Source of the DNA: Candidatus Nitrosocosmicus sp.
GTDB taxonomy: Archaea; Thermoproteota; Nitrososphaeria; Nitrososphaerales; Nitrososphaeraceae
Assembly: GCA_031177355.1 (NCBI GenBank)
Contig: JAPSGR010000019.1
Coordinates: 1 to 36,400 of the forward strand
Direction: 5' to 3'
Length of the DNA stretch: 36,400 bases
The translations under genes and the position numbers were made by a program. The notes under the pieces were generated by a model, which was not told the DNA's origin, did not search any database, and worked only from the letters and a program-made list of their open reading frames with translations. Below, piece after piece: positions 2,416 to 20,275 of this stretch (the stretch's first letter is position 1; each line of letters begins with the position of its first letter).

Positions 2416-2766
2416 TTATATAACTTCAATAGACTCTTCAGAAAATCCTTTTGATATCAAAAAATCTGTGACCTTTGAACGATGATCGCCTTGTAATACA
2501 ATTATACCGTTTTTTGCAGTTCCACCTGTTCCTATAGTCTTTTTTAACTCATGAGCAATCGACTCCATTTGTTCTTGATCGGTAAATCCCTTGATGTTGG
2601 TTACTCTTTTTCCTCTTTTGATTACATAGAGCTGAACGGTTATTTTTAATTCATCTTCATCAAGTCTTTTTAATAGATCCCCAAATGAGTTATCATCTTC
2701 TAAAGGATAGGATTCAATTTTATTTTTCTTCGAACCTGTCGGTTTCTCTTTTTTTATCTCTGATAT
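2416..2766 (-). CDS. SUI1-family translation initiation factor (aIF1), apparently with a near-cognate start codon
   Basis: The frame closing with TAA at 2416 encodes an unmistakable SUI1 domain. It begins at ITVQLYVIKRGKRVTNIKGF, continues with the family signature GTGGTAKNGIIVLQGDHR, and ends GFSEESIEVI. aIF1/eIF1 binds the small ribosomal subunit and checks start-codon pairing. The frame opens after a stop at 2791-2793 and contains no ATG, GTG or TTG before the SUI1 domain. Candidate starts are ATA at 2766 (giving I/M-SEIKKEKP), ATA at 2757 or 2790, and ATT at 2718. I give 2766 because an AT-rich TATA-like sequence (2788-2799) lies about 25 nt upstream, as expected for leaderless mRNA. A start-codon mutation or sequence error is the alternative. 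Confidence 0.75.
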   Translation of the reverse strand: MSEIKKEKPTGSKKNKIESYPLEDDNSFGDLLKRLDEDELKITVQLYVIKRGKRVTNIKGFTDQEQMESIAHELKKTIGTGGTAKNGIIVLQGDHRSKVTDFLISKGFSEESIEVI

Positions 2767-2787
2767 AGAGTAGTTATTTAATAATGA

Positions 2788-2799
2788 TATTTAATTTTT
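2788..2799 (-). promoter_or_regulatory. Possible TATA box for the SUI1 gene
   Basis: On the minus strand this reads AAAAATTAAATA. Its centre lies about 25 nt before the proposed ATA start at 2766, the spacing of archaeal TATA boxes from leaderless start sites. The match is weak and the region is AT-rich. Confidence 0.25.
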
Positions 2800-2968
2800 G
2801 TTATTATTATTGAACCTAGATGAATTCCTTATGGGAGTATAATTTACATTCGAAGATATTTTGATATTACTGAAGGAAATACATAACTATATTGTCCAAA
2901 TATGATCCTATATCAAAACCTTTGGTTATCAGGCTCACCTTCAACATAATTTAAGAAAAAACGGTATA

Positions 2969-18012: not shown

Positions 18013-19311
18013 ATGGCCGATATAAATTTTAATCAATCACGTCATTTGTTTGAAAGAGCCACAAAAGTAATTCCGGGTGGTGTTAATAGTCCAGTAAGGT
18101 ACTTTCAGCCCTATCCATTCTTCGTAGAATCTGCAAATGGAAGCAAATTATTTACCAATGACGGAAATGTATTAATTGATTATTGCTTAGGTTATGGATC
18201 AGTTTTTCTAGGACATGGTAATCAAGAGGTCGGTACAGAAGTAAAGTATCAAATGGATAAAGGAAACTTATTTTGTACACCAACTGAAAAAGAAGTTCAG
18301 TTAGCAGAAACATGTACAAAAATAATTCCTTGTGCAGAGATGGTAAGGATAATGAACACGGGAGCAGAAGCTACAATGCATTCGATAAGACTGGCCAGAT
18401 CTTTTACAAATAAAACTAAATTAATTAAGTTTGAAGGTGGATATCACGGAGCTTTTGACTATGTTCTAAACAAGGCTGGGTCGGCGGCGGCGGCCAAGGA
18501 TTATACAGACGGAATATTAACTGAAAGTGCATCCAAAACGATCACTATACCTTTTAATGATATTGAAGTTGTTCAAGATATCATAAGTAAAAGGGAGAAT
18601 CATAATGACATTGCTTGTATTATAGTTGAGCCGGTTTTGGCTAATACAGGACTAGTTCTCCCAGAAAAAGAGTATCTCAACAGTTTACGAAACATAACTA
18701 AAGAAAATGGAATTGTATTAATCTTTGACGAAGTAGTTACAGGCTTCAGATTGGCATTGGGAGGAGCAAGTGAGTTCTTTGGAATTAAACCAGATATTGC
18801 CACATTTGCCAAAACGCTTGGAAATGGATATCCAATTTCATTGGTGGCAGGAAACAGAGAAATAATGTCTGGACTTGCACCATGTGGATCGGTATATCAA
18901 GCAAGTACTTTTGCAGGTAATCCTGTTTCAGTAACTGCAGCACTAAAAACCCTCGAAATACTCACCAAAGAAAAAAATACAATCTATCCAAAAGTTGCTA
19001 TATCATGTGATAAATTGGTTGATGCAATCAGGGATATTGTGTCTGATAAACAATTAGACGTTATGTTAAATTCAATAGGTTCTATGTTTCAACTTTTTTT
19101 TACAAACAAACTGATCAGAGATTATGATTCAGTAAAATCAACAGACACCGAATCTTTCAATAAATTATTCAGAATACTCTTAAAGAAGAACATATTTATC
19201 CCACCTTCTCCATATGAAACATGTTTCATCTCGACAATGCATAATGAAGAGGATATTGAAAAAACAATAGATGCCTACGAATCTGCATTATCCACGGTGA
19301 GGGATTTTTAA
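18013..19311 (+). CDS. hemL: Glutamate-1-semialdehyde 2,1-aminomutase
   Basis: A 432-aa PLP enzyme that turns glutamate-1-semialdehyde into 5-aminolevulinate, after HemA. It has the class III aminotransferase fold, starting with FERATKVIPGGVNSPVRYF. The PLP-binding motifs are NTGAEATMHSIRLAR, GGYHGAFDY and IFDEVVTGFR. The Schiff-base lysine is Lys267 in IATFAKTLGNGYP. Full length. It begins the second half of the tetrapyrrole cluster. Its last codons are GAT TTT TAA, and the reading frame of hemC begins inside its 3' end, overlapping by about 8 nt, so expression of hemL and hemC is tightly linked. Confidence 0.95.
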   Translation: MADINFNQSRHLFERATKVIPGGVNSPVRYFQPYPFFVESANGSKLFTNDGNVLIDYCLGYGSVFLGHGNQEVGTEVKYQMDKGNLFCTPTEKEVQLAETCTKIIPCAEMVRIMNTGAEATMHSIRLARSFTNKTKLIKFEGGYHGAFDYVLNKAGSAAAAKDYTDGILTESASKTITIPFNDIEVVQDIISKRENHNDIACIIVEPVLANTGLVLPEKEYLNSLRNITKENGIVLIFDEVVTGFRLALGGASEFFGIKPDIATFAKTLGNGYPISLVAGNREIMSGLAPCGSVYQASTFAGNPVSVTAALKTLEILTKEKNTIYPKVAISCDKLVDAIRDIVSDKQLDVMLNSIGSMFQLFFTNKLIRDYDSVKSTDTESFNKLFRILLKKNIFIPPSPYETCFISTMHNEEDIEKTIDAYESALSTVRDF

Positions 19312-20275
19312 ACAAATAGTAGTTGCCACCAGAGCGAGCAAACTCGCTACAAGACAAACCGATTTAGTAGTTTCGTCAATAAAGAGGATCAAGGTTGATC
19401 TTAAAATTAGCATCGACAAGATTATTACTCAAGGTGACCGGGACAACAGACCATTTTTTGTAATGAATAGGATAGGCGTTTTTGAAAAGGAAGTTAATGA
19501 AAGATTGTTAAAATATGAAGCGGATTTTGCAGTTCACAGTCTAAAAGATCTTCATGCAGGAATATCAGATAAACTGGTTATTGCATGTATACCAAAGAGA
19601 GAAAGGCCTAATGATGTATTTATAAATAGTATCGATGGAAAATTACTCAATCAACTTCCTCCTACCTCCATAATAGGAACTAGTAGTATTAGAAGGGCTA
19701 TTCAAATTAAAACCAAGTATCCTCATCTCAAAATTAAATCTATTAGAGGAAATGTAGAAACAAGACTTGATAGATCGAAAGAGAATAAATACTCAGGAAT
19801 AATCTTAGCTGAGGCTGGAATAGATAGATTAGGATTAGCTAATCAGATTACTCAAAGGTTAAATATTCGCAGTTTTACTCCAGCACCAGGCCAAGGAGCA
19901 TTGGCAATTGTTTGTAGAAAAGACGATACAGATCTTTTGAAATTATTGAAAAAAATAGAGGATGTAAATTCACTAAGAGAGGTTCAAGCAGAAAGAACTT
20001 TAACGGATGCAATTGGGGCAGGATGTACTGTTCCTTTAGGCGCATGTGCATATTCAAAAATTAAGGAGAAACGGATCTCACTTTTTGCAGTTATTTATTC
20101 TTTAGATGGAAAAAAATCCATTAAAGCAGCCCTACAGCATAGTATCGATCATCCGCAAAAGTTGGGTAAGATGGTTGCAGAGGAATTGATTTCAAAGGGT
20201 GCAAAAGAAATAACAAAGGATTGGGATAATAATACTAATATGAATATCGATGTACTAAATAAGTTGATAGAATGA
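19304..20275 (+). CDS. hemC: Hydroxymethylbilane synthase (porphobilinogen deaminase), probable ATT start
   Basis: Joins four porphobilinogens into hydroxymethylbilane. The first conserved strand IVVATRASKLATRQTDLVV and the ITQGDRDNRPF segment lie upstream of the first ATG in frame (19463), so that ATG cannot be the start. Between the in-frame stop TGA (19298) and this strand there is no ATG, GTG or TTG. ATT at 19304 gives MFKQIVVATR and is preceded by GGTGA (19296-19300), complementary to the CACCUCC tail of archaeal 16S rRNA; ATA at 19316 is an alternative. Numbering from 19304 (323 aa), Asp82 is in HSLKDL and the dipyrromethane Cys241 is in GAGCTVPLG. Its TGA overlaps the SUMT start as ATGA. 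Confidence 0.9.
   Translation: MFKQIVVATRASKLATRQTDLVVSSIKRIKVDLKISIDKIITQGDRDNRPFFVMNRIGVFEKEVNERLLKYEADFAVHSLKDLHAGISDKLVIACIPKRERPNDVFINSIDGKLLNQLPPTSIIGTSSIRRAIQIKTKYPHLKIKSIRGNVETRLDRSKENKYSGIILAEAGIDRLGLANQITQRLNIRSFTPAPGQGALAIVCRKDDTDLLKLLKKIEDVNSLREVQAERTLTDAIGAGCTVPLGACAYSKIKEKRISLFAVIYSLDGKKSIKAALQHSIDHPQKLGKMVAEELISKGAKEITKDWDNNTNMNIDVLNKLIE

Follow-up and report, generated by a model that had tools for sequence, protein, structure and literature searches.

Which codon starts translation of a gene whose reading frame offers no standard start? The question is raised by a SUI1 frame on the reverse strand (2416-2793) of the 36,400-nucleotide stretch of Candidatus Nitrosocosmicus sp. 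DNA analyzed here (the window). The frame opens after a TAA at 2793-2791 and contains no ATG, GTG, or TTG upstream of the SUI1 core, its earliest standard start being an intradomain ATG at 2568 (the M of 'QEQMESIAHELKK'). Our re-reading of the frame agrees on this point with the original prediction, and also with the positions given there for the non-standard candidates, i.e. ATA 2790, ATA 2766, ATA 2757, and ATT 2718; ATA 2790 falls within the TATA box described below. The original prediction took the gene for archaeal aIF1 and suggested that it limits its own synthesis through a poor start codon. Here, we propose that the locus is probably functional, that it encodes a second SUI1 (aIF1-like) protein of Nitrososphaeraceae, one without a zinc ribbon, and that this protein would be translated from the 5'-terminal AUA of a leaderless message. 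The features on which this proposal rests are collected in Table 1.

Table 1 Positions of the features discussed, numbered from the first letter of the window
Feature	Position	Strand	Evidence
CDS, second SUI1/aIF1-like paralog from proposed AUA start, 116 codons + stop	2416..2766	-	Conserved coding, dN/dS, SUI1 Pfam match
Proposed AUA start codon	2764..2766	-	ATA in 14/14 Nitrosocosmicus; 28-29 nt past TATA-box start
TATA box TTAAATAT, proposed leaderless promoter	2787..2794	-	First conserved upstream block (14-genome alignment); position -28
A-rich BRE-like stretch AACAAAAA preceding TATA box	2795..2802	-	Kept in clade A genomes
SUI1 domain core	2443..2646	-	PF01253 profile search of genome, E 1e-15
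hemC	19316..20275	+	Second window gene without ATG/GTG/TTG start; homology from ~19316 (ATA 19316-19318)

The locus encodes a second SUI1 paralog

The source genome (97% complete) contains two SUI1 genes, the one in the window and a copy on contig C11. The C11 copy is the canonical aIF1: it has a zinc ribbon (MAVICKKCGLPDDLCAC), begins with ATG, and passes the NCBIfam model NF002096 with 122.2 bits (cut-off 98). By contrast, the protein encoded in the window lacks the zinc ribbon of the canonical copy, has no cysteine at all, and with 73.1 bits fails the same model. It passes the Pfam SUI1 model (58.9 bits; cut-off 25.5), and its nearest sequence matches among solved structures are SUI1/aIF1 proteins from archaea (E 5e-14 for the best PDB match). 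Thus, the part of the original prediction that placed the gene in the SUI1 family holds, while its identification as the canonical aIF1 does not. The canonical aIF1 starts with ATG in every Nitrososphaeraceae genome examined; in an outgroup genome from another family (G052) it shows TTG.

Of 15 Nitrosocosmicus genomes, 14 carry the second paralog; many other Nitrososphaeraceae have it too, and some related genomes lack it or have a broken copy. In a tree of both paralogs, which was built from few columns and has weak inner forks, the Nitrosocosmicus sequences of the second paralog cluster with a support of 100/99, and these sequences and the canonical copies are each split off by a strongly supported branch. 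The second SUI1 gene of G043 starts with ATG and sits on a long branch, so that its membership in this paralog is unsure. Separately, we observed in-frame stops in the paralog of G036 (contig C262, locus L057) and of G033 (contig C64); because of these stops, the paralog is probably dispensable in some lineages.

An ATA codon is invariant in 14 Nitrosocosmicus genomes

To locate the start, we aligned the 14 Nitrosocosmicus loci, complete chromosomes among them. Between TATA box and core, none of the 14 genomes shows a standard start that is conserved. Standard codons occur in this interval only as an unconserved TTG (G003), an unconserved GTG (G012/G013), and an ATG that the four genomes of clade B carry at the border of the core, within 'GGMLKRLDED'. 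Because a conserved standard start is missing in all 14, its absence from the window is not an error. Instead, the TATA-like block is followed by a spacer of ~20 nt, then ATA, then TCN, CCA, or TTC, and then GAR. The start codon column is ATA in every one of the 14 genomes, while each of the seven columns that encode Ile in all 14 varies in codon (ATA/ATT/ATC). This is the outcome that the original prediction had looked for among orthologs, i.e. a near-cognate start kept across relatives (ATA within the genus, mostly GTG in other genera); an ATG at the matching position, named there as a sign of mutation or sequence error, is absent from all 14. Taken together, the alignment supports a near-cognate start as the best reading of the SUI1 frame.

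Synonymous changes are found from codon 2 on, with codons 2 and 3 both showing them, and in clade A dN/dS is ~0.14-0.17 in the N-terminal part (0.14 for codons 2-35) and ~0.05 in the core. These values bear on the explanation that the locus is a pseudogene or the product of a sequencing error, with which the in-frame stops in the paralog of G036 and G033 would be in keeping. Against it stand the low dN/dS of the core and an architecture shared by all 14 genomes, some of them complete chromosomes; a pseudogene was rejected on the evidence of purifying selection, and we regard this explanation as extremely improbable.

Initiation could also take place at another non-standard codon downstream, or at a non-conserved site. 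AUA 2757 and AUU 2718 do exist in the source genome; however, G005 has TTT and G003 has ATT in place of AUA 2757, and relatives have ATA, ATC, or TTT in place of AUU 2718, which makes use of such a site unlikely. Because the conserved first residues are few, the assignment of the start to AUA 2766 rests mainly on spacing and on the invariance of the codon, and part of this invariance could stem from promoter (initiator-element) constraint.

A predicted promoter would put the ATA first in a leaderless message

Conservation in the 14 loci begins at the TATA-like block, and nothing upstream of it could be aligned. In most clade A genomes the block reads AAAAATTAAATATCAT; its clade B counterpart is TTATATAG. 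The block starts at -28/-29 from the A of the ATA, by motif match in 11 genomes and by eye in G001, G004, and G008, where it reads TTATATA. The base at -1 is T or C and the base at +1 is A in all 14 loci. As a calibration, we used the conserved genes of two complete relatives, G005 and G007, in which TATA-like motifs are most frequent between -35 and -28, with 12 at -28 and a fall to 3 at -27, the pattern expected of leaderless and short-leader transcripts. Because the TATA spacing at the SUI1 paralog fits this calibration, we predict that the message begins with the ATA at 2766; this promoter assignment was made from consensus and spacing. In sequence, the locus therefore has what is expected of a leaderless transcript, namely a TATA box ~28 nt before the start, a pyrimidine at -1, and a purine at +1.

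The same alignment speaks to splicing. Archaeal mRNAs with introns exist, and removal of a BHB intron might join the N-terminal part to an upstream exon that has a standard start. The 14 genomes, however, have no conserved block above the TATA box, and the TATA box itself occupies the site where the intron would be. An upstream exon was rejected on the lack of any conservation above the TATA box, and we consider this alternative very improbable.

We infer the following sequence of events from features read directly in the genomes, i.e. the missing standard start, the promoter spacing, the codon invariance, the purifying selection, and the recurrence of similar starts in other genes (see below). 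The TATA promoter would drive the paralog with a predicted transcription start at or adjoining the A of the AUA, and the mRNA would therefore be leaderless. Translation would then initiate at the 5'-terminal AUA, presumably by means of the ordinary CAU initiator tRNA, and the AUA start may result in low or conditional synthesis of the protein. An altered initiator tRNA was also considered and rejected: we found a single initiator-type anticodon arm with CAU and no UAU version, and an Ile(UAU) call by ARAGORN looks by eye like an intron-containing tRNA-Asn.

Most other genera carry GTG at the homologous position

In the 30 outgroup genomes scanned for it, the homologous codon is GTG, in most with TCN as the next codon; in genus g11 it looks like TTG. 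The GTG usually lies 30-31 nt past a CTTTTSAR-like box (e.g. L050, L060), which is probably a promoter element of those other Nitrososphaeraceae genera. In 11 of the 30 outgroup genes, an in-frame ATG is found one to five codons upstream of the conserved GTG, in no consistent place. Because most other genera carry GUG at a similar distance from the promoter, we suggest that the weak start is old and that AUA is its Nitrosocosmicus state.

Other Nitrosocosmicus genes lack standard starts

The window contains a second gene of this kind. The hemC frame opens at 19301 on the forward strand and overlaps the hemL stop (19309-19311), and the listed ORF, which begins at ATG 19463, misses the first ~50 residues. 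In 12 of 13 readable Nitrosocosmicus genomes, hemC has no standard codon near its N-terminus; the exception, G006, has a GTG two codons past the ATA. The codon three before the ATR is ATA in 11 of the 13 and CTG in G008 and G010. The start of hemC may be ATA 19316 or an NTT codon overlapping with the stop of hemL, 6-7 nt past GGTGA. In other genera, hemC mostly has ATG, TTG, or GTG near the matching site.

We then surveyed 414 conserved ORFs in a comparison of G005 and G007 (0.8 Mb each). Of these, 36 were flagged, most of them ordinary genes with conserved promoter DNA; upon reading, ~7 look real (1-2% of the 414), comprising the SUI1 paralog, hemC, and genes for a class III cyclase-like protein, an FAD oxidoreductase, a helicase-like protein, a 208-aa secreted protein, and a small HMA-like protein. 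Eight clade A genomes have an FAD oxidoreductase gene (L361-L368) that lacks any standard start and has ATA or ATT at the matching codon. The HMA-like gene (L347, L348) has ATT (G005) or ATC (G007) at TATA+28 and no standard start near its N-terminus, and the gene for the secreted protein has ATA at TATA+30. The latter gene (L343-L345) occurs in four genomes, and the ATA near the predicted leaderless position is kept in the three that were read. In the class III cyclase-like gene (L145-L159), a GTG or TTG lies ~28 nt past the TATA box; relative to the conserved body, it is out of frame in most clade A genomes, whereas G002 and two genomes of clade B have it in frame. A frameshift, an AUU start, or another cause are candidates to account for the offset. 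As a control, a genome of another genus (G064) was compared with G005, and among the 56 pairs two cases turned up in G005 and none that convinced in G064, numbers too small to establish genus specificity.

Nitrosocosmicus thus seems to tolerate AUA and AUU starts in a handful of unrelated genes. Because starts of this type also occur in these unrelated genes, the SUI1 paralog is best seen as one case of a relaxed start codon repertoire, and we hold a leaderless AUA start that belongs to such a repertoire to be the likely explanation of the locus.

Possible start-fidelity autoregulation

Why would a weak start be retained? In bacteria, infC starts with AUU and IF3 regulates its own synthesis; eukaryotic eIF1 is likewise autoregulated, through an AUG in poor context. 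By analogy, the AUA (GUG elsewhere) might be kept because the paralog or the canonical aIF1 rejects near-cognate starts and so exerts feedback on synthesis of the paralog. This idea is compatible with the leaderless AUA explanation and would supply a reason for the AUA. It is favored by the retention, across most of the sampled Nitrososphaeraceae genera, of a non-AUG start at a fixed distance from the promoter, in contrast to the constant AUG of the canonical paralog, and by the finding that aIF1 of Sulfolobus favors discrimination against non-canonical starts (PMC6237735). On the other hand, the gene with the AUA start is the paralog and not the canonical factor. Moreover, of two traits that would be expected of an infC/eIF1-type system, a conserved poor start codon is found (ATA in all 14 Nitrosocosmicus genomes, GTG or TTG in the majority of other genera), whereas a poor start peculiar to the factor gene is not, with hemC, the FAD oxidoreductase gene, and others sharing the lack of a standard start. 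Because unrelated genes have similar starts, the poor start alone is no sign of start-fidelity autoregulation. On this evidence from sequence, autoregulation by start codon stringency is possible and not specifically supported, and we consider it doubtful that feedback is what keeps the codon weak. More speculatively, and with somewhat less confidence still, AUA, AUU, and AUC might be regular conserved starts of a small set of Nitrosocosmicus genes, several of them leaderless, with the AUA-start paralog tuning the leniency of start selection along with its own synthesis.

If our main proposal is correct, a conserved AUA opening a leaderless mRNA, found in 14 species and echoed in other genes of the genus, would widen the archaeal start repertoire, and it would bring to light genes, hemC among them, that gene callers cut short or overlook. 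It would also offer a natural setting in which to test how start codon stringency is set by aIF1-type proteins on messages without a leader. The same data advise caution, in that an initiation-factor gene with a poor start need not imply autoregulation if unrelated genes share such starts.

Comparison with known systems

Compared with described archaeal leaderless mRNAs, the paralog is alike in having a TATA box ~28 nt before the start codon and mostly T at -1; the start codons reported there for all leader types are AUG, GUG, and UUG, and the AUA of the paralog is not among them (PMC7531240). Our literature search, which covered part of the literature, found no papers on AUA starts in archaea. 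With archaeal aIF1 (PDB 5zcy, of the Pyrococcus type, and 4mo0), the paralog shares the SUI1 domain and the GGT-K-G and LQGDHR motifs, and it differs from the canonical aIF1 of its own lineage in lacking the zinc ribbon, in scoring below the NF002096 cut-off, and in its proposed AUA start. Like infC, it is related to start selection and has a near-cognate start that is conserved; unlike infC, it is archaeal, is predicted to be leaderless, does not encode the main factor, and belongs to a genus with similar starts elsewhere. Finally, it resembles eIF1 in encoding a SUI1-family protein from a persistently weak start; the AUG of eIF1 is weak by its context and is read by scanning, whereas in the paralog the codon itself would be non-AUG and would lie at the predicted 5' end of the mRNA.
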